The notes: a model not told the origin generated them from the letters alone. A stretch of DNA of 64,000 nucleotides from Ferroplasma acidarmanus Fer1 (GCF_000152265.2 NC_021592.1:1178001-1242000), one strand, 5' to 3'; counted from the stretch's first letter, positions 25,990-36,387 are shown. Made by a program: numbers and translations.

Positions 25990-26007
25990 TAAGCCGCCGA
26001 CGGGATT
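25990..26007 (+). repeat. attR: 18-bp copy of the tRNA-Thr 3' end
   Basis: TAAGCCGCCGACGGGATT is identical and in the same orientation as 35622-35639, where it forms the 3' end of the intact tRNA-Thr. It marks the left border of an integrated element of about 9.6 kb carrying its own tyrosine recombinase. Confidence 0.88.
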
Positions 26008-26012
26008 AACAT

Positions 26013-26023
26013 TAAAAGGTTAA
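26013..26023 (+). promoter_or_regulatory. Arm site of the integrative element, left side
   Basis: TAAAAGGTTAA, 5 bp inside attR, is the exact reverse complement of TTAACCTTTTA at 35607-35617, 4 bp inside attL. In the circular form both would flank the 18-bp core symmetrically, as expected for recombinase-binding arms. Confidence 0.6.
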
Positions 26024-26921
26024 AGCTATAAGCTAAAAATACCTAAATTATTTTTTTTCTTTATATACTCACGATCCGGTTTTTGTAATATAAAAATACA
26101 ATTATATAATCGCATGATTATTTTATAGTTTTAAGCCAGGTTAAAATTTAACCCTTGAGTTATAAAAAATATGGCCATAATTGCAACTTTTAATCTTGCC
26201 TTAATTTTCATACCCTATAATGCCATTTTACAAGGCAATTTTACAAGGCAAAGTCATTTACTGGTATAACTACACCCTAAAAGTAAGTCATGCTCCAAAA
26301 TCATAAAGGAAACCTGTTATTTTTTTCCAGGTTATCTGCCAATTTTAACATACATAAAACAACTCATGCAGAAATCTTAACCTTTACCTCTTGATTCACA
26401 ATTATATAATAATAGGAAAGCAGCCGCCGCCATGTTAGATATTTCATAAAGGATCCAGAGAAAAAAATCTCCATATAGCAATCCCCTATATCCCTCTCTC
26501 TTGCGTCAAGCAAATGCGAAAATGCAAAAAATAAGCAAAATCCATTGAAATTATTATGTTTAAAATTTCGTAAATGCAAAAAAATGCGAAAATAAAAGAG
26601 ATTAACTTCCCCTTAAGAAATACATACAGAAACCGGCATAAACCTGGATTTCACCCAATGGTATATAATTGACATGGAGATAATTCCAACCCTCCACAAT
26701 ATTTTGGTTATATACAGTTATTTAAGGTATGAGGTATTTTTCTATCTACCTTTCTATAAAATATTCAGTTAAACTTATAGTCATGGTTTTCAAAATAAAG
26801 CAACCTTGGTTGGGATTATCATTTTCTATGTTAGATTATCCAAAAAAATTTAGCAGGGAGAACTAAAATTGACCTACCTGAGCTTAAGAATGGGATTGAA
26901 TGTATAAGGTAAATCATGCTA
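26024..26921. other. Gene-free AT-rich end of the integrated element
   Basis: About 900 bp with no convincing gene. It contains a perfect tandem pair of 13-mers (TTTTACAAGGCAA, 26226-26251) and a cluster of iteron-like sites (separate entry). A 71-codon minus frame at 26364-26579 has no recognisable features. Confidence 0.5.
26512..26592. repeat. Iteron-like AATGC(G)AAAA boxes
   Basis: Two clusters of two boxes: AAATGCGAAAATGCAAAAA at 26512-26530 and, in mirrored order, AAATGCAAAAA then AAATGCGAAAA at 26572-26592. The AT-rich DNA between them suits an origin or a replication-protein binding region of a former plasmid. No replication gene is left nearby, so this is inference. Confidence 0.35.
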
Positions 26922-27341
26922 TCAAATCATATAATAAAATATACTCTGTAATCTCAAATCTATGAAATCTATTCTATTTACTATTTCATCAAGCTCTTTG
27001 TTTTCCTTTGCTATTTCATTTATACCCCTTGACATGTTTTCTTTGAGCTTTTCCCTATCTTTCCTTATATTGTTACAGAGAGCATTCTCAGGAACCATAA
27101 AGTTATGGAATTCATTGCTGACTGCACGTTTGCCTGCCTCTGATTCGTCAATGCCTGCTTCCTCCATGATTTTTGACATGGCATCCTCAACTTCCTCTTT
27201 CCACCCGTCACTCAGTCTTTTAATAAATAAGAGAATCAGAATATATTTGTAATCCACAGATGTCCGTACTAGATCTGCAGCATTATCCATCAATTTAACC
27301 AGATCATTTTTTGTAATTTTGCGAAAACAGTCAACTGCCAT
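26922..27341 (-). pseudogene. HsdM N-terminal fragment (type I restriction-modification)
   Basis: 139 codons resembling the N-terminal helical domain of type I methyltransferase subunits: LMDNAADLVRTSVDYKYILILLFIKRLSD, then a charged helical region. The methyltransferase core with the SAM and NPPF motifs is missing, and no hsdS or hsdR gene follows. Full HsdM is around 480-500 residues. It is a decayed cargo gene of the integrative element. Confidence 0.7.
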
Positions 27342-27418
27342 AGAACTCTAAAGTATCAGTGCACTCTTATATTTGGAGTATACTATACGTGGTATGTGTC
27401 ATTAAGAATTTATATGAT

Positions 27419-28294
27419 TTAGATATTGTCTCCATTGTTGGACTCAAATTGTACTGTAACATGATTGACACCGTATTTTGACAGTATTCTTTCGATGTCT
27501 TTCCTCACGGAATCAAGTTCACCTATCTGCATCTGAGAAGGTATACTCATATGCAGGGTGGCCACTCTCTGGTGCTGGCATATGTCCCAGATGTGCAGAT
27601 GATGTACACTTGGAAACTCCTTCCTAATCATCTCTTCAACCTCTTTGACACTGACGGAAGAGCCTTCGAGCAGTATGTTAACGTTTCTCCTGAACATATT
27701 GCGGTTTCCGTATAGTATTATGAAGAGAACAATGTAGCTCCCCAGGTAGTCAAGATACTGGCTGAAGAAGTAGAACGGCAGTAGCGAGAATGCCAGTACT
27801 ATAATCATTATTGCAAGGTCCTGCAGTGTATGAATGAACATAATCCTGAAGTTGGACTTTTCGTCATGTTCAATAGTAACTCCTGCCACTATCAGCAACG
27901 GAATGGCTATTATAGCCGATAAGGCGGTGCTGCCACTTGAGATTGGAATGCCGTGTATCAGCAATTCCGTTGTGAGTATTGCAGAATATGCTGAGATTGC
28001 AATGAACAGTGTGATAATCGTGATATTCAGCAGTGCCTCGACTCTATGGAAACCGTATGAGTGAAATTCATCCGTAGGTTTATTCGAAATTCGGTTAACC
28101 AGGAAAATCATTGATATCGACAAGGCGTCTACCAGACGGTCGGATACCACGGAAAGGGATAGTGGATTATCGGACTCCAGGTAAGAATAGAGGAACAAAC
28201 CGAGAATAATCCAATATAATAAAGCAGTGATAACATTGTTCTCCGACCTGCTCCACTTAATTTTGGACAGTTTTTTAGTGTAATGTTGAGACAC
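27419..28294 (-). CDS. Cation diffusion facilitator (CDF) metal transporter
   Basis: 291 residues with six hydrophobic helices followed by a cytoplasmic domain. Metal-site signatures are SDRLVDALS in helix 2 (Asp-x3-Asp) and HTLQDLAIM in helix 5 (His-x3-Asp). The C-terminal domain carries VHHLHIWDICQHQ, a typical CDF metal-binding block. Role: proton-driven export of Zn, Fe, Mn or similar ions; the exact metal cannot be told. GTG start at 28294. It appears intact cargo of the integrated element and would suit a metal-rich acidic habitat. Confidence 0.88.
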   Translation of the reverse strand: MSQHYTKKLSKIKWSRSENNVITALLYWIILGLFLYSYLESDNPLSLSVVSDRLVDALSISMIFLVNRISNKPTDEFHSYGFHRVEALLNITIITLFIAISAYSAILTTELLIHGIPISSGSTALSAIIAIPLLIVAGVTIEHDEKSNFRIMFIHTLQDLAIMIIVLAFSLLPFYFFSQYLDYLGSYIVLFIILYGNRNMFRRNVNILLEGSSVSVKEVEEMIRKEFPSVHHLHIWDICQHQRVATLHMSIPSQMQIGELDSVRKDIERILSKYGVNHVTVQFESNNGDNI

Positions 28295-28439
28295 TTCTAT
28301 TCATCCTCTTCATATTAATTTTCCTGTTTCTCAATCTCCTTTCCTCTTTTTTCTTTATCCCATCCATAAACCTGTTCCTGAATTCCGTTTATTTCTAAGG
28401 CTGTTTACTGTTCCCATTATCTCTTTCCTCTATAATTTT

Positions 28440-28700
28440 TTTTACTCATCGATAACCAGTGCTTGGTCACCTACCAGCCTTTTCAATTTTTCATTCTTTC
28501 TGGTATTCATTATCTCCAGATCTGCCGGCTCCATAGAATCCCGTTTTCCCAGATTCTATAAATTTATCCCTCCATTTATAGAAGTTGGCTCCTAATACTC
28601 CCATGCCTCCTGCATAGCTCTGCTATACTATTAGTTGTAAATGATTCTATTACTATTCTACCTTTTCATCTGATGTAAATTTCTCCATTATATCACTTCC
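28440..28700 (-). pseudogene. IS3-type OrfA remnant
   Basis: On the minus strand the pieces KFTSDEKVE, then SIAELCRRHG-like, then NFYKWRDKFIESGKTGFYG and LKRLVGDQALVIDE appear in different frames with stops between. Together they match the helix-turn-helix OrfA of IS3-family elements. The rest of the element is gone. The remaining bases between 28295 and 29054 hold only the small ORF listed next and a weak hairpin near 28967-28983. Confidence 0.55.
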
Positions 28701-28787
28701 TCATATTCCACTTGGTAACTGTCCAAATAATAAAGGGTATGCACCACTACACATTAAAATTAAGGAGTTATTTATATACCCCCTGAT

Positions 28788-28931
28788 CTATTTTTTGTTG
28801 TCCGAAAAAGAACTCTTTGCCGGACATGTGTTTGCAGGGCATACACCTGTACAGTTGGTGACCGGCTGAGTTGCTGCATCATTTGATGATATCTTTTCCC
28901 CTATCCTTATTGTAGTATCTGCAACGCACAT
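28788..28931 (-). CDS. Small Cys-rich ORF, 47 residues
   Basis: Starts MCVADTTIRIG and ends in CTGVCPANTCPAKSSFSDNKK (shown to its C-terminal part only): one Cys near the start and three in a C-x3-C-x4-C cluster. An in-frame TGA lies directly before the ATG. No ribosome-binding site is obvious. It might bind a metal, given the CDF gene 0.5 kb away, but it may equally be a leftover of a longer gene. No family recognised. Confidence 0.3.
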   Translation of the reverse strand: MCVADTTIRIGEKISSNDAATQPVTNCTGVCPANTCPAKSSFSDNKK

Positions 28932-29054
28932 TCAGGCAGGTTACAGACTAGACTTCACATGGCTTGCCCATGAGAGGCAATAACGAGGAGGTATCTTAAT
29001 AAATGTAAATCGGGACGCTGCCAAAAGTTAATTCCGCTTAATACATATGACTTG

Positions 29055-29558
29055 TCATGAATGCAAATGCGCAGCCTTGGATTCTATCGAAATTGAATAA
29101 AGCAGAAAAACGAACGAAATGACTGCGATGATAAACCCAATGGACATAGTGAAAGAGAAAGTATTATTCTGGAAGTTAGAAAATATGAATTCGAGACCGC
29201 TTAATCCAGCAAGTAAAATCGAGATTGATGCTATTGCACTTACGACCATCGATTTATAGTCCCCCAGCATCAGGGTCATCATAAATATCATTAATGACAA
29301 CAGTCCAATAAGAACGCCAATCATCATATGAACCATAAGTTCAGGAATTGAAAACATAATATCCATCATTCCATACATCGGAAAGGCATTGTTATATGAA
29401 GGATAGACTGCAAAGAGATTCATCCACATTCCGATTATGAACTGCACTGCAAGAAGAGATAATTCAGCCACTATGGCTATGGACAAGAAGTGAGTGCCCT
29501 GCCCATTGAATTGAAACACGTGTCCTCTAGACGTCATGATTTTACCTGTATATTCCAA
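29055..29558 (-). CDS. Four-helix membrane protein, Met-rich, unknown
   Basis: 167 residues with four hydrophobic segments (about 24-50, 70-98, 105-128, 135-157) and a striking number of Met residues (MWMN, MYGMMDIMF, MVHMMIG, MIFMMTLML). His pairs flank the ends (HLHS at the C-terminus). Met/His-rich membrane proteins can handle copper, and the neighbour is a metal exporter, but this is only a hint. It lies between the CDF region and a full IS and is probably cargo of the element. Confidence 0.55.
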   Translation of the reverse strand: MEYTGKIMTSRGHVFQFNGQGTHFLSIAIVAELSLLAVQFIIGMWMNLFAVYPSYNNAFPMYGMMDIMFSIPELMVHMMIGVLIGLLSLMIFMMTLMLGDYKSMVVSAIASISILLAGLSGLEFIFSNFQNNTFSFTMSIGFIIAVISFVFLLYSISIESKAAHLHS

Positions 29559-29667
29559 TATCCGAGAGAACTATTAAAGCTTTCCTAAAATGCTATGGCA
29601 ATTACATTCCGTTAGGTGAATAATTGTATGCCTCTCTGGATCATTGCCTCAAAGTTCATAATTTCCT

Positions 29668-31350
29668 CTAAGCGGCCTGAATATTTCTTGACGCCTGAGC
29701 CGCATTCATCATCTGATCGTTGTATGGAGTATCGCTCAGATTGTCCTCAAGTATCATTCTTGTTCCATCAGCTACGAGTTTATTAACAGTGCTCACTGTC
29801 ATACCAGGTTTCCTGAAATGTTCTCTCCGCTTTGCAAATACAGCGGAGATCCCATCCGAACCAAAGACAGTTTTCACGTAGATCGGGTTGTCCAGGTTCT
29901 GGAACAGGGCAAGCTGGACACCGCTCTGTGCCAGAACATGCCCTGTTGCTGTATTGCCATTTCGTTTCCTCACATTCCTCCTGATCTTCCTGAAGAACCT
30001 CTCCATGCCGTTGTTCGTCCTTGGCATGGTTCCATCTGCGTTGTTTGCAAACAGCATGATTTCACGCTCATGGTACCTTTCAATGATGTGTTTCGCAGCC
30101 CTGATTATGTGAGGAGCTATGTTCTCATGAAGGTATACTTCCATCTCCCCTATGACCGTGTTGCACTGATCGTGAATGGATGCATCATCCGGAATGTCAT
30201 CCGACAGATTGCCCTTTTCCGGGATCCGGAAGGCAAATCGAAGCTTCTGGAAGAGCATGTTCACCTCGGAGAGTTTCTTTGCAGTTTCCACTATGCTCTG
30301 ATCGGTTACTATGCGGCCTATGTATTTCCTTGCACTGCTGATCAGTTCCATGGATTCTTCGCCTGCTGCCTTTTCTGAAAGCTCAGATAAGAGCTTTCCC
30401 GCTTCTTTCAGTGAAGTGAAGAAGTTCAGGTGGTTCAGGGAGAACGGGAATCCATAGCCTGAACTACCGTTAACCGAAAGAACCGGTTCAATTATTCTCC
30501 TTATGGCCATGATCTCCATCTTTCCCCGGTCGGAACAGAACCCGTTTTCTATCTCTTCCAGTGTATTCTGATCGTAATCAGGCATTGATCTCAGAATGGA
30601 TTTCAATGCCGATTTTATCCCCTTCCTGTTTATCTTGAGACCGAGATTGTTATGCATGTCCACCATCAGACCCTTTCCAAGGTCTCTGAGAAAGTGCATC
30701 AAGCAGATCCTTATGGGCATTCCATGGAAGACCTCTGCAAGGGCGGTGAGTATGCCCGATCTCATATCGGATATGGATCCTGATGGCGATCCGAATCTTT
30801 CCTTCACCTTCATCAGGATGTCCTTGATGTTCTCATATGATTCCGAGGCGTATTTCTCCGCATGGAGAGTGAAATTAGATATCGAATCCCTTACAACGAC
30901 GATCATGTCAAACTTCGAATCCGTCGTTCCGTCTATCTGCAACACATAATTATGCATGGCACCCTTCAGCTTTTTCCAGCTTTCCTCATGAATCCTGGAT
31001 AATATGCGGAGTGCCATGTTCGTCACATTCCTTGCATGGCTCCCGCTTATTCCCCTCATCCCGCCCTGTTCGGATATTTCCGAGCAGCTAAGTCCATGGA
31101 TGAACCTGCCCATGGAGGCCTCAATCATGATGTCATTGGCGTATATGCAGTGTGGATTAACGATGGACTTCAGCCTTTCGGATCTGAACATTGTTCCATG
31201 TCTTCTGCATCCCATGATTTTATGGACTGCGGTGAACTCGCCCATCTCCCATGATCTGATCGTCCTCCTCTCCGTCTTGTATTCCACAAGACGGGAATGG
31301 CACTGAGGGCAGACAGTGCGATCCGTCCGGAATATGATCTCCGAGATCAT
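29668..31350 (-). CDS. Transposase, main ORF (orfB)
   Basis: 560 residues from the ATG that overlaps the orfA stop as ATGA; a longer frame starts at 31416 but its extra 22 codons overlap orfA in another frame. An N-terminal zinc-ribbon-like part (CPQCHSRL, later GCRRHG) precedes a DDE core: Asp in LQIDGTTD, Asp in ISDMRSGI and Glu in NNGMERFFRKIRRN. The sequence around the last motif resembles MULE/ISL3-like transposases. The protein looks intact. A related C-terminal fragment lies just downstream at 31843-32064. Confidence 0.75.
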   Translation of the reverse strand: MISEIIFRTDRTVCPQCHSRLVEYKTERRTIRSWEMGEFTAVHKIMGCRRHGTMFRSERLKSIVNPHCIYANDIMIEASMGRFIHGLSCSEISEQGGMRGISGSHARNVTNMALRILSRIHEESWKKLKGAMHNYVLQIDGTTDSKFDMIVVVRDSISNFTLHAEKYASESYENIKDILMKVKERFGSPSGSISDMRSGILTALAEVFHGMPIRICLMHFLRDLGKGLMVDMHNNLGLKINRKGIKSALKSILRSMPDYDQNTLEEIENGFCSDRGKMEIMAIRRIIEPVLSVNGSSGYGFPFSLNHLNFFTSLKEAGKLLSELSEKAAGEESMELISSARKYIGRIVTDQSIVETAKKLSEVNMLFQKLRFAFRIPEKGNLSDDIPDDASIHDQCNTVIGEMEVYLHENIAPHIIRAAKHIIERYHEREIMLFANNADGTMPRTNNGMERFFRKIRRNVRKRNGNTATGHVLAQSGVQLALFQNLDNPIYVKTVFGSDGISAVFAKRREHFRKPGMTVSTVNKLVADGTRMILEDNLSDTPYNDQMMNAAQASRNIQAA

Positions 31351-31661
31351 TTCAGCCTCAGGAAGGTCTTCTTCAGCTTGAGATCGTTCTCTATCATGAT
31401 CTTTGTTATTGGCCATGAATCATACTCGATCCCGATCTTCTTCAGGATCGAATCTATATCCTCCTGGCTTATCTTCTTGTCCAGGAGCCTTTTGATATAG
31501 GGCAGTATGTCCTCCAGTTTGATCTCATTCTTCGAATGCAGGTCCTTTCCAAGGTATCCAACATACTTCTGCACAACCTTTCCTTTCACACGCTTTTCGT
31601 CAACAAGGCTGTAATAGGTATTTCCATCCTTTCTTGTTACTTTTTTAGGTCTCACTGTCAT
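31347..31661 (-). CDS. Transposase N-terminal ORF (orfA)
   Basis: 104 residues starting MTVRPKKVTRKDGNTYYSL with the KVVQKYVGYLGKDL block found at the N-terminus of several archaeal and IS1634-like transposases. The ATG at 31661 is chosen because TATA sequence TTTATATT lies about 25 bp upstream; the frame is open further into the terminal repeat. Its TGA overlaps the orfB ATG (ATGA), so translation is likely coupled. Confidence 0.65.
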   Translation of the reverse strand: MTVRPKKVTRKDGNTYYSLVDEKRVKGKVVQKYVGYLGKDLHSKNEIKLEDILPYIKRLLDKKISQEDIDSILKKIGIEYDSWPITKIMIENDLKLKKTFLRLK

Positions 31662-31842
31662 GTGGACTGTAATTACATCCCACAATATAAATGTTTCGGT
31701 ACGCCGTATTTTACGCAAGAAATGATACAAAACATTGCTATTCATCTAACGGAATATAATTGCCATAGCTAAAATGCTATGCCGGACATTGACTGTCTGT
31801 GCTGTATATAGTATTTATACCAGTAATTAACATGTCAGAATT

Positions 31843-32064
31843 CTATGTTTTAACAGATTTTATTGATTGAAACAGTTTATCTGTATATGGATTGTCTTTT
31901 ATTCTGCTGTTTATTATCATATCAGTGCCCTTTTCAACAAGCTGTATAATCTTTTTATGTGTCATTCCATTATTCCCGTATGGCATAATGTGCTTTGCCA
32001 GTACTGAAGCAATATTGTTGTTTCCAAATACTGCCTTTACATAATCCTTATTCTCTATTGGTGT
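31843..32064 (-). pseudogene. C-terminal remnant of a related transposase
   Basis: The minus-strand peptide DYVKAVFGNNNIASVLAKH, then GMTHKKIIQLVEKGTDMI and DNPYTDKLFQSI aligns with the last 75 residues of the neighbouring intact transposase (YVKTVFGSDGISAVFAK, GMTVSTVNKLVADGTRMI, DTPYNDQMMNA). It comes from an older, diverged relative that was cut by the next IS at about 32064. The intact IS thus landed next to a fossil of its own family. Confidence 0.7.
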
Positions 32065-33084
32065 GTCCCCTCTAAATTTGGACACTTATGATGATATGGT
32101 TAGATTAATAAAATCATTTATTTTGCTGTATCTCCATAGGCGAACCTTATCATCATATTTTTACAGTATATCCGTGTGATTTTTACTGGGTTACTAGGTA
32201 AATTATGTTCTGGGAATGGTTAATCCCTATCTTCGTATATCTGCCAATAATCGCGAATATAGCACACTTTTGGGATATTATAATATTTTTATATATTCTC
32301 AATTATAACCGTCCTAAATTAAGTGGAATAGATCATACTCCCTCCTTTTATTATCAATATCCGGTGATACAAGCCTCAATTCCAATCCATTCCTGAACCC
32401 TACAATCTTAGAGTTGAACGTTTCCTCTTTTATTACAGTATAATCGGCATTCTTCCTGAGCCTTGAAACAAAGTTAATATTATTCTCCTTTAATTCCTTA
32501 AGCCTGTCATAGCTATAGTACCCTAAATCAAATGTTAAAACAGTATTGCCAGACATGTATTCGTTTATATGCCATAACAGATCATCAAATACTTTGGAAT
32601 CATTTACATTTGCAGGTGTTATTATTGCCTTCAATGGCAATGCATAGTGATTTGTTTTAGCTGCAATATGGATCTTTATCCCATTTCTCCTTTTCTCCCT
32701 CTGGTATATGCCGGAACCATTAACCATTGTTTCTATAAATGTAGAATCTATTGCCAGAATACTGTATAGTTTGTCAAGATAATCATGGTATATATCATAC
32801 CTGTGTGCCTTTATGAATGTGTTTAAAAGGCTGTAGAATACCTTCTCAGATATAGTGTATGGCCTTTTATTGTTGAGCTTTGACAGCTGTGATTTGCTTA
32901 TTCCATTGTTATATGCTATATCTGTAAGGTCATTCTTTTTAATTATCCCTTTTGCTAATATGGATAGATGTGCTGACAGGTTAAACTTCTTAGAATAGCT
33001 GTCTATGCCTATTCCTTCAACCTTTGATTCCCTTGATATTTTATTGCAGTGTTTTTTAAGAATTTTATTGACATGCTTGAACAT
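32065..33084 (-). mobile_element. Truncated IS4-type element
   Basis: The left edge GTGTCCCCTC, then GGACAC near 32065 looks like an IS end. A 256-codon frame (32314-33084) holds the N-terminal two thirds of an IS4-type transposase: a helical N-terminus, the first catalytic Asp in LAIDSTFIE, and the second in LTFDLGYYSYDRL followed by NFVSRLRKN. The Glu-containing C-terminus is missing; about 230 bp of unreadable sequence follow. No clear right-end repeat or target duplication was found. Confidence 0.65.
32314..33084 (-). pseudogene. IS4-type transposase, C-terminally truncated
   Basis: 256 codons, MFKHVNKIL to DLFHLI. The first two catalytic Asp are in LAIDSTFIE and TFDLGYYS, and the middle KIHIAAKTNHYALPLKAIITPANVND is typical of IS4/IS5 enzymes. 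Full-length relatives extend some 100-150 residues further with the YREMT-like Glu motif, absent here. Judged inactive. Confidence 0.65.
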
Positions 33085-33179
33085 GATTATAAATTAAGGC
33101 TCTTCGCACTTTCGTATGGGTAAATAAAAATGATAGACCGCAGAGAGGCTTCATTTATTGGGTTTTATCGCTCATCATA

Positions 33180-33290
33180 AAAGACTGGTCTCGCTGGGCA
33201 TCCGCTAACTCCCACTGACCTTAAAAAACCGGCTTTCCTTGTTATCCCATTGATGGGGACCCACATGAAAGTGGGAAGAACCTAAATTAA
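33180..33290 (+). other. Possible IS605 tnpB 3'-end relic
   Basis: A plus-strand frame reads KTGLAGHPLTPTDLKKP and ends GTHMKVGRT before a stop. It is followed by little else and preceded by a stop. The ending resembles tails of archaeal TnpB/OrfB proteins, and CCCAC-ATGAAA-GTGGG can form a small hairpin like an element right end or an omega-RNA scaffold. Too short to be sure. Confidence 0.25.
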
Positions 33291-33323
33291 ATCATAGAAT
33301 AAATATGATACGGTCATACATAA

Positions 33324-34301
33324 TGGTTAAATACTGGAAACTGGTATGTTATTATTGGAATTGTTTTTGAGATTATTGGTATCATAGCTTTTTTATTGGC
33401 AGGTAATGCACCAGAACTATTTCTAGCAAGGGCTATGCAGGGTTTAGCAAGTGGTGCAATATCTGGTCCAGCAGGTGCATTATTATTTCATTATCGTGGA
33501 AAAACAGGTGCAATCCTAACATCTTTTTCAACATCATCAGGAATCGCGGTGGGGCCATTACTTGGCGGTTTTATGGCTGAATATTTACCTTTCCCTTTAA
33601 AACTGGTATATATTATCTCATTAATAATTACTATAATTCCTTTTATTTTTATTATTCCTGTAATAAATAGATTCAGAATAGATAACAATCATAATGTTTT
33701 TAAATTCCATTTTCCAAAACTGGATATGGAAGCAAAGAATTTATTTATATTAAGTGCAGCCACAGCATCTATTGCCTGGTCTATTACCGTATTTTATTTG
33801 TCTTTGTCACCGTTTTATATTATAGAGTTATTGAACATTTCAAATATAGCAATAACAGGTTTATTAGTATTTTTGATGTTAGTAATATCTTCAATAATGC
33901 AGATTTTATCAATGAAAATTAATATATTTAATTCTTTAACTATTGGGATAATTTCTATTATTATTGGCATTATCCTCATTATTGTATCATTGCCGTTTAA
34001 ATCTATATTAATTTTTAGTGCAGCAACAATCACGATTGGAATAGGGGGCGGATTTGCCTTTACAGGAGCTACCAGGGGAATCAGGACAATTGCACCTCCA
34101 TTAAGAATGGGTAATGTTTTATCAAATTATTATATGATACTTTATTTCTGTATGGGATTTTCTGATATTATTCTAGGACTTATAGATAATATGTTAGGAT
34201 TATTCAATGGGATTTTATATTATGGTTCCAGTTTAATAATTATTTCATTAGTAATTATAATATTTCTATATAGGCATAGAATGAAAATAATTATAGATTA
34301 A
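33324..34301 (+). pseudogene. MFS transporter, 5'-truncated
   Basis: The open frame starts at a stop-bounded TGG at 33324, and the first usable start is TTG at 33396. The product begins inside helix 2-3 of a major facilitator (ARAMQGLASGAISGPAGALL is the helix 4 region) and continues to the end with helices 5-12. Helix 1 and the family A-loop signature are missing, so the transporter cannot be complete. It seems to have been cut by the neighbouring IS debris. Substrate unknown; the drug-exporter group is the closest in feel. Confidence 0.7.
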
Positions 34302-34345
34302 TATCGTTTTATATTAGATTTTTATTATATAAATATTATTGATTT

Positions 34346-35581
34346 TTATTTCTCACCATTCCTGGATTCTTCTTTGAATCTCTTCAGCAGCTCCGGATCC
34401 TTTAAAATTTCTTCCAGGATTTCCTCAATCATTTTATTTTTGAATCCTTCCGGGGCTTTTTCCAGGATGCTCTTGGTCATTCCAGGTATAACAGAGGAGC
34501 TTTTCAGTGTGGACACAATATTGTTTTCCTTATCCTTGTATTCCAGGGCCAGCTTCTCATTGAATGGCATAAAGCAATTTGTGCAGTATAATGCAGTTGA
34601 AGCGTTTAAATGGTCGCATCTCGGGCATTTCTTAGGCTTTTCCTCTATTATCCGATCCTCATCTACATGTATTCCATAGGCTTTTAGGATCGCATTATCC
34701 TGGCCCCTTCCAGACAAATGCACATATATTGCAGTCATCTGGCTACCATGCACCCATCCCATTTGATTCTCACGTGGTGCTTCCGGAACTTTAGAAGCCA
34801 GCATTGAGGCCCTGGTATGCCTGAACAGATGCGGATATATCCTTTTCTCTATTCCTGCACGCCTTCTCACATTAATAAATAATCTTCTGATAGCAGTATA
34901 TTGCAGCTGCTTATGCATGGTAGTACCCTGCAGGCCGGTAAAAAGGTATTCATCCCTGCCATCCTTGGTTTTTAAGTAATCCCTCAGGTAAGCGATTGAA
35001 TCTCCTATTATCCTTACACTGCGGTTTCCCGTCTTTCCATGCACATGCAATAATGCACCGTATTCATCATAAACAACATCTTTTATCCTCAGGTCCAGTA
35101 TTTCCCCTATCCTGCACCCTGAATCGTATGGAATGGAGATAATTGCCTTATCCCTGGCATTGTTGCAGTTGTTAATCATTTCATCTATATCTGCCCTGGT
35201 AATAAGATCCATCTTCTTGTCATGGCTTGGCTTCCGGCTAACTTTAAGATTTGCCATATAATCGGGTAGTGTGCCAAATTTCCATCTGTAGAACCGTTTC
35301 ATCACGTTTTCATAATCAATTAAAGTCTGGTCCGTGTATTTTTTCTTGAAGTCCAGGAGCATTGTTATAATTGCCCTCTTGTCCGGGTTAAGGAACTTAT
35401 CCTGAAGATTGTTGTAAATAATCCTTAGCTTTGTCAAATAGAATAATTCCCTGAAACCTGTTATGCCTGTTATCTTGACTTCATCAACAAAATCTAATAT
35501 TGCATTCCTGGCTTCTGCGTTTATCTTCCCTAATCTTGTATGCTCTGATTTTATATCCCTTTCTACCCCATATATTGCCAT
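34346..35581 (-). CDS. Tyrosine recombinase (integrase) of the tRNA-Thr element
   Basis: 411 residues. An N-terminal SAM-like core-binding domain (about 70-130) precedes the catalytic domain with Arg in DSGCRIGEIL, Lys in HGKTGNR, HLFRHTRAS (His-x2-Arg), a second His/Trp in GWVHGSQM and the nucleophile Tyr in TAIYVHLSG. The C-terminus carries a zinc ribbon (CPRC, CTNC) seen in some Thermoplasmatales recombinases, then a Lys/Glu-rich tail. The gene ends next to attL, 41 bp from the tRNA-Thr core repeat. It reads away from the tRNA and is intact, so excision may still be possible. Confidence 0.92.
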   Translation of the reverse strand: MAIYGVERDIKSEHTRLGKINAEARNAILDFVDEVKITGITGFRELFYLTKLRIIYNNLQDKFLNPDKRAIITMLLDFKKKYTDQTLIDYENVMKRFYRWKFGTLPDYMANLKVSRKPSHDKKMDLITRADIDEMINNCNNARDKAIISIPYDSGCRIGEILDLRIKDVVYDEYGALLHVHGKTGNRSVRIIGDSIAYLRDYLKTKDGRDEYLFTGLQGTTMHKQLQYTAIRRLFINVRRRAGIEKRIYPHLFRHTRASMLASKVPEAPRENQMGWVHGSQMTAIYVHLSGRGQDNAILKAYGIHVDEDRIIEEKPKKCPRCDHLNASTALYCTNCFMPFNEKLALEYKDKENNIVSTLKSSSVIPGMTKSILEKAPEGFKNKMIEEILEEILKDPELLKRFKEESRNGEK

Positions 35582-35606
35582 TACTTTGCTATTGATACAG
35601 AGGGAT

Positions 35607-35617
35607 TTAACCTTTTA
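35607..35617 (+). promoter_or_regulatory. Arm site of the integrative element, right side
   Basis: TTAACCTTTTA, 4 bp inside attL, is the exact inverse of the site at 26013-26023. A near match (TTAAAGGTTAA) also lies just outside the tRNA 5' end at 35699-35709. Confidence 0.6.
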
Positions 35618-35621
35618 GCAG

Positions 35622-35639
35622 TAAGCCGCCGACGGGATT
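35622..35639 (+). repeat. attL: 18-bp core inside the tRNA-Thr gene
   Basis: Identical to 25990-26007. It covers the acceptor and T-arm 3' strands of the tRNA plus 3 flanking bases, the classic target region of tRNA-specific recombinases. The tRNA gene is kept whole. Confidence 0.88.
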
Positions 35640-35697
35640 CGGTCCCGCGACCTCGTGCTTACCAAGCACGCGCTCTACCAGGCTGAGCTACGACGGC
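35624..35697 (-). tRNA. tRNA-Thr (anticodon GGT)
   Basis: Acceptor strands GCCGTCG and CGGCGGC pair with one G-T. The D-arm GCTC/GAGC has a loop with CCTGG. The anticodon arm CGTGC/GCACG encloses TTGGTAA, giving GGT, and the T-arm GCGGG/CCCGT encloses ACCGAAT. The discriminator is T, and no CCA is encoded. Oddity: the T-loop lacks the usual TTC at 54-56. The promoter lies at the right, with TTTATACA about 25 bp upstream. Confidence 0.9.
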
Positions 35698-35889: not shown

Positions 35890-36183
35890 TTATTTTATCG
35901 ATATGAGCGTAATAGCTTTTTCAGGACATGCTTTAACACAATCTCCGCAGGAATGGCATAGTGCCGGGTCAATAACATACGCCTGTTTGCCACCATGTGC
36001 CCTGGCTTTCAATTTTCCAACCAGTGACATATTCTTTTTGTCTTCATCCTTCAGAGGTATTAATTCAAAAACATTGTATGGGCAAATAGAAACACATTCG
36101 CCCTTTGCTTCGCAACTGTTTCTGTTTATTGACGGTATCACCAATCCGGTTGTTTTGCAGTTTTCATTAATGTTGTTTGCCAT
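35890..36183 (-). CDS. Ferredoxin with two 4Fe-4S sites
   Basis: 97 residues from MANNINEN; an in-frame start 9 bp earlier is less likely. Two cluster motifs are present: CEAKGECVSICPYNV (near 24-36) and CHSCGDCVKACPEKAI (near 75-90). The spacer of about 40 residues and the N-terminal extension resemble the long archaeal ferredoxins of Thermoplasma and Sulfolobus, electron carriers for 2-oxoacid oxidoreductases. In the first motif CxxxxxC replaces CxxCxxC, so that site may carry a 3Fe-4S or altered cluster. It is a single gene, divergent from MCM. Confidence 0.85.
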   Translation of the reverse strand: MANNINENCKTTGLVIPSINRNSCEAKGECVSICPYNVFELIPLKDEDKKNMSLVGKLKARAHGGKQAYVIDPALCHSCGDCVKACPEKAITLISIK

Positions 36184-36387
36184 TTGCAGCATCCTTTTCC
36201 ATATCTATGCTACCTGCGTAAATATATATTTCTTTTTGCCTGTTATGATTACATATCGCCCAGAATGATATGCCACACTAAATGCCAGGCCATTTACAAT
36301 TCGCAAAAAAGTATATGGATAACACATTTTGTTACCCCCAGCAGGCTTAATAAAGTGTTAAATACTTATTATCAATAATAATTATAC

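Follow-up and report, generated by a model that had tools for sequence, protein, structure and literature searches.

A tRNA-Thr-targeting integrative element of Ferroplasma acidarmanus Fer1 and its probable compact, mirror-symmetric attachment site

The window analysed here is a stretch of 64,000 nucleotides corresponding to positions 1178001-1242000 of the 1.935-Mb genome of Ferroplasma acidarmanus Fer1 (G000; GCF_000152265.2, NC_021592.1); feature coordinates are counted within it, and genome-wide counts were obtained by pattern searches. It contains a 9.6-kb integrative element (25990-35639), hereafter the tRNA-Thr element, bounded by two exact 18-bp copies of the core TAAGCCGCCGACGGGATT. 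One copy (25990-26007) is a displaced tRNA-Thr 3' fragment at the distal junction, and the other (35622-35639) overlaps the 3' end of the intact target gene, tRNA-Thr(GGT) (35624-35697, minus strand; ARAGORN, Rfam RF00005), which supplies 16 of the bases, the other two lying beyond the tRNA. At up to 2 mismatches these are the only copies in the whole genome, in agreement with an initial annotation of the region that had described an exact 18-bp repeat of the tRNA 3' end at both ends. The same annotation had placed an intact tyrosine recombinase beside the tRNA and assigned it a zinc ribbon at the C-terminus, and both points were borne out: the integrase gene (34346-35581, minus strand; Pfam PF00589) is an intact open reading frame (ORF) of 411 amino acids with its start codon 42 bp from tRNA-Thr, and its product has all the tyrosine recombinase residues (R, K, HxxR, W/H and Y) together with a zinc ribbon, CPRC-x10-CTNC. 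The catalytic and zinc-ribbon residues are kept in relatives, CPRC-x10-CxxC being present in nearly all full-length relatives aligned. Integrase relatives were detected at E≤1e-20 in 41 of 250 genomes of the class, and a paralogue with 70% identity is encoded elsewhere in the same genome; a search of viral contigs for integrase relatives and for the terminal motif described below returned none.

Next to the cores lie the two halves of an inverted repeat. A perfect 11-bp repeat placed 4-5 bp from the core had been annotated; the repeat and its spacing are real, and the perfect part is 12 bp long, TTTAACCTTTTA (26013-26024 on the minus strand and 35606-35617 on the plus strand, spaced 4 and 5 bp from the core), within arms of about 17 bp. 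Arm comparison places the far inverted arm, TAGCTTTAACCTTTTAA, at 26012-26028 (minus strand), and the integrase-side arm, GGGATTTAACCTTTTAG, occupies 35602-35618 (plus strand), an identical 17-mer being found upstream of the paralogous integrase. The joined ends would read TTTAACCTTTTA-GCAG-core-AACAT-TAAAAGGTTAAA, the predicted circular junction. Such agreement between two 45-bp ends seldom arises by chance: when AT-rich 45-mers of the Fer1 genome were paired at random, 5 of 20,000 pairs shared a 12-bp match. The 11-mer of the arm has seven genome copies; two are the element arms, and another is situated 25 bp upstream of the gene for the paralogous integrase of 70% identity.

The arm-core-inverted-arm layout was rebuilt in eleven relatives, located in Leu, Phe, Met, His, Gly and Asp tRNA genes, with a common junction plan of arm, 5-11 bp, tRNA core, 2-9 bp and inverted arm; rebuilt arm pairs include GTAGGGATATGGACTT / GTAGGGATATGGAATT (Asp), CGCATTGAACTATTTAG / CGCATTGAACTTTTATA (Gly) and GGCATTAAACCTTTGAG / GGCATTGAACCATTGAG (Phe). 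A weight matrix trained on integrase-side arms alone picked out inverted copies beside the matching tRNAs, and arm identity within an element was 12.9/17 against 9.6 for permuted pairs (p<1e-5; p=0.003 with one element per clade). The arm sequence differs among elements yet is mirrored inside each, which is the pattern expected of binding sites co-evolving with each integrase, and the recurrence of symmetric arms in rebuilt relatives makes the link between arms and recombination stronger than the Fer1 sequence alone could show. On these comparisons, mirror-image arms are a hallmark of a whole family of related elements inserting into many different tRNA genes. The automatic rebuilding pass gave no arm signal in G062, G033a, G023b and G023a, the last of which was later aligned by eye. 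For the paralogous element in tRNA-Leu(CAA) of Fer1, taken alone, the arm match reached p=0.10, the family-level tests being the weight matrix and the pair permutation. The element of G023:C3 in tRNA-Leu(AAG) has good arms; its core was left out as evidence because its two copies do not match. In G023:C3, arms agree across a 3.8-kb element at L049:169-4080 and the cores are from different sequences, which hints at inter-element recombination; at L050:5846-10400, a 71-bp identity extends past the tRNA-Asp core at each junction, the pattern that two elements inserted in tandem would give.

A conserved motif of about 70 bp, TTTATATACTCNCGATCCNGTTTTTGTAATATAAAAATA..., was identified by profile match at the end opposite the integrase (26057-26126, plus strand), 52 bp from the core. 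Across 77 genomes of the family it gave 22 pattern matches, against 0 for the reversed control; in 18 of the 22, a tRNA 3' end (Gly, Leu, Asp, Arg, Val, Pro, Met, Phe or Glu) precedes the motif by 50-54 bp, and the remainder comprise one match at the edge of a contig on which a tRNA-Gly end is visible and three copies of the tRNA-Thr element itself. Because the distance to the core is constant, the motif may act within the recombination complex or influence transcription of the junction region. The genes beside it vary and include SocA/Panacea and ParE-like toxin-antitoxin genes; at loci L147, L152, L146, L149 and L150 it immediately precedes a SocA/Panacea antitoxin-like gene, and in at least one of them a ParE-like toxin gene comes next. 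A function as promoter of one particular gene was unsupported, as the SocA/Panacea-ParE pair is downstream in some relatives and convergent genes are in others. A weak copy near tRNA-Gly(CCC) of the same genome (L042:19614-19673) probably marks a third, decayed element, and in G025 and G028, genomes with no intact close integrase relative, the motif and arm-like sequence occur at tRNAs, as decayed or satellite elements.

In relatives, the terminal motif adjoins the intact tRNA and the integrase gene lies at the far end. In the tRNA-Thr element of Fer1, G020 and UBA567 the ends are swapped, with the integrase gene adjoining the intact tRNA and the motif by the displaced fragment, so the element body is inverted relative to the core. 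This inversion possibly arose by exchange between the mirrored arms, and a comparison of spacers bearing on the site of the flip weakly favours exchange within the arms (60 v 48, 61 v 52). The integrase gene also lies beside the intact tRNA in G003 and G002, at tRNA-Gly.

Evidence for mobility came from other genomes of the genus. The tRNA-Thr end is single-copy, indicating an empty site, in 7 of 10 genomes, and in G024, G026, G027 and G028 a radical-SAM (S-adenosylmethionine) gene directly follows tRNA-Thr. The anticipated empty site, radical SAM-tRNA-Thr-ferredoxin, was thus found in relatives as far as the radical SAM gene is concerned, whereas ferredoxin falls outside the ancestral site because it occupies that place only in G000 and G020. 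This ferredoxin gene (35890-36192) lies between tRNA-Thr and an MCM gene and is missing at the same place in UBA567 and the other congeners. No case of cargo loss with both 18-bp repeats kept was seen. In UBA567 (G021), a metagenome-assembled genome (MAG) of another Ferroplasma species, the same element occupies the same tRNA, with 99.97% identity to Fer1 over 6.1 kb and 99.7% over 3.8 kb, against 80.6% in the left flank and 82.9% in the right flank, the identity step falling at the repeats. The UBA567 copy is about 4.9 kb longer in its middle, where it carries transposases and a methyltransferase gene. G020, which belongs to the same species as Fer1, has 1 mismatch in 9,650 bp of element and a right flank at 98.4%. 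Near-identity of the element between flanks of about 80% requires recent movement, and we conclude, given the UBA567 MAG contig, that the tRNA-Thr element has recently moved between Ferroplasma species.

We consider it highly probable that this is a tRNA-targeting integrative element whose attP (the attachment site on the element) is compact and mirror-symmetric. The proposal of the initial annotation, an integrative element whose ends were once joined, gains support from the unique repeats, the empty sites, the identity step and the recurrence of the arms in relatives. Entry into the tRNA-Thr gene was by site-specific recombination between attP and the tRNA 3' end, as the repeats, empty sites and identity step show. 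The integrase most likely recognises the two inverted arms of about 17 bp, placed about 4-11 bp either side of a tRNA-derived core of about 17 bp, and strand exchange within the core would keep the tRNA whole and leave one arm at each junction. The terminal motif, which lies opposite the integrase gene and 50-54 bp away from the core, is probably an accessory-factor site or a promoter of the same recombination module, given its constant spacing. The recent move between species could reflect an element that is self-excising and depends on others for transfer, or one mobilised by chance. With the body inverted between the arms relative to related elements, the integrase gene sits directly downstream of the tRNA; with only 42 bp between them, read-through from the tRNA-Thr promoter is conceivable, if speculative.

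Several points weigh against this interpretation. The far arm scores 7.3 bits with the weight matrix against 20.8 for the integrase-side arm, and an element-encoded factor other than the integrase could bind the arms; the integrase, the presumed arm-binding protein, is nevertheless the only gene outside the insertion sequences (IS) that was recognised as common to the relatives. The Pfam scan of the element ORFs recognised no excisionase, replication or transfer/conjugation gene. The element may still be able to excise, although searches of viral contigs and of 10 congeneric assemblies yielded no circular junction. These last features are also those that would favour an immobile genomic island, the vertically inherited and decayed remnant of a single old insertion: its cargo consists of truncated genes and IS remnants, replication genes are unrecognised and no circular form was found. 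Such a fossil is considered unlikely, since near-identity with UBA567 between diverged flanks needs recent movement, and the integrase is intact with conserved motifs and both 18-bp repeats are still identical. That the UBA567 identity results instead from homologous recombination or from a chimeric contig, and not from site-specific transfer, appears very unlikely; UBA567 is a metagenome assembly and its right junction holds an identical 74-bp tRNA, but both flanks, at 80-83%, continue on one contig, and at the left junction nothing but the 18-bp core is shared with Fer1, a length below the k-mers usual in assembly and insufficient for either an ordinary assembly chimera or ordinary homologous recombination.

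The arms themselves could be read differently. The integrase-side arm is AT-rich and lies about 20-60 bp upstream of the start codon, as would befit a promoter or operator of the integrase gene (BRE/TATA-like AAAGG-TTTAA) with no part in recombination. This explanation was rejected, and is held to be distinctly improbable, on account of the matching far arms in relatives, where an element-specific inverted copy stands at the opposite end, far from any integrase gene; several relatives also have a separate TATA-like stretch closer to the ATG. It is more doubtful still, to the point of being barely credible, that the left half-arm arose by duplication of part of the tRNA-Thr leader and is no integrase site: tRNA-Thr is preceded by TTAACCTTTAATG, which resembles the arm, but the same leader is found in congeners with empty sites, where it varies independently, and arms at other tRNAs have other sequences, so a by-product of the leader was rejected.

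One of the closest known systems is the paralogous tRNA-Leu(CAA) element of the same genome (G000:C1:1387298-1402842; 15.5 kb, bounded by AAATCCGACCCTCCGCA), which shares with the tRNA-Thr element a tRNA core, a 70% identical integrase and the identical integrase-side arm. It differs in that its integrase lies at the tRNA-distal end and in carrying primase-polymerase/D5 helicase, Dam-type methylase and PD-(D/E)XK genes. An ATPase and a second integrase-like fragment are also encoded there. The available text of a review (PMC8371274) describes archaeal elements that integrate into tRNAs by a non-suicidal tyrosine integrase (the pNOB8/XerA-like class). With these the tRNA-Thr element shares an intact integrase beside the attachment site, a tRNA 3'-end direct repeat and a preserved target tRNA, and it differs in its 17-18-bp core (40-50 bp being quoted for pNOB8 integrases), its C-terminal zinc ribbon and its lack of a SAM-like N-terminal Pfam domain (no match to PF02899/PF13495 of pNOB8/XerA/SNJ2 integrases at E≤0.01); mirror-symmetric arms and a terminal motif are not described for this class in that text. 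The integrase scores 108.7 bits against the archaeal XerA equivalog profile NF040815, below its cut-off of 220. Hallmarks of SSV-type (suicidal) integration, in which attP lies within the integrase gene and insertion splits it, are absent, the integrase gene being intact and outside the core and matching only PF00589 in Pfam, with no Phage_integr_3 (PF16795). An orf1-3 operon is named for SNJ2 in the accessible part of PMC13107129; no operon of that type (integrase plus two small accessory genes) was seen here, since a convergent MFS transporter fragment lies downstream of the integrase gene and no small same-strand ORFs of at least 50 amino acids are present there. A single-sequence structure model of the integrase was too poor for use (pLDDT 35.7).

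Of the named viral integrases, the nearest belong to Archaeoglobi pleolipoviruses (PMC10919331), namely GacPV1 (BK065156; 37.5% identity over 81%) and ThalV2 (BK065158; 35.2% over 78%), and share the C-terminal zinc ribbon (CPRC-GYLN...CGRC) with the tRNA-Thr element integrase. The Archaeoglobus virus ThalV2, like the tRNA-Thr element, has inverted arms across its circular junction region (13/14, p=0.0005), and those of GacPV1 are weakly supported (7 bp, p=0.15). Unlike these viruses, the tRNA-Thr element has no VP3/VP4-like structural gene or rolling-circle Rep recognised among its ORFs in the Pfam scan. The layout resembles lambda-type attP in that a core is flanked by extra sites that attB lacks, and differs in having one mirror pair of arms, 4-11 bp from the core, and a total of about 50 bp, against about 240 bp for the lambda attP (PMC8371274). 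Genomic islands at tRNAs have been reported for acid mine drainage and other acidophilic archaea including Ferroplasma, and the portions of those reports at hand (PMC12302457, PMC12350378) describe no attachment-site anatomy, arms, terminal motif or inter-species transfer. Neither the arm layout nor the motif is described in the available text of PMC8371274, PMC12302457, PMC12350378 and PMC10919331; an earlier description may exist, for example in the subscription literature, including that on the SNJ2 integrase. A broader proposal, advanced tentatively, is that the zinc-ribbon integrases found in Thermoplasmatales, and in some pleolipoviruses of Archaeoglobi, rely on a compact attP class of their own, in which a tRNA-end core lies between co-evolving mirror arms with a terminal motif at fixed distance. 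Because the arms are symmetric, the body could flip relative to the core, in the tRNA-Thr element moving the integrase gene next to the tRNA, possibly under its promoter.

Archaeal attachment sites are poorly defined, and a shared core alone is often insufficient for recombination, extra neighbouring bases being needed (PMC8371274, available text). For one group of integrases, the element family gives a comparative answer in the form of some dozen reconstructed attP sites, whose arms co-vary and are open to mutation one at a time. The arm pair and the terminal motif also provide a simple search handle for such elements, including decayed ones that have lost the integrase, and the comparison with UBA567 documents a recent jump between species for an element with no recognised transfer genes.

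The cargo, annotated by scanning the element ORFs against Pfam, is degenerate and consists mostly of IS debris and transporters. From the motif-bearing end it comprises, on the minus strand, a fragment of a type I modification subunit (HsdM_N; 26922-27341, PF12161), a cation-efflux (CDF) transporter (27419-28294, PF01545 and PF16916), a small predicted membrane protein with no Pfam match (29055-29558), a MULE-like transposase (29668-31416; weak PF10551 match, under the cut-off), transposase remnants (31347-32085; ORFs 31347-31745 and 31843-32085), identified from ORF calls and alignment as the site of the extra 4.9 kb or so in UBA567, and a probably truncated DDE transposase (32314-33084; PF01609, profile positions 3-120 of 200). 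A truncated major facilitator superfamily (MFS) transporter (33396-34301; PF07690, profile beginning at position 85) lies on the plus strand, convergent with the integrase gene. At the left end, a short conserved stretch (26386-26447) recurs in G028 and G022, and in G028 it is located about 2 kb inside the terminal motif.

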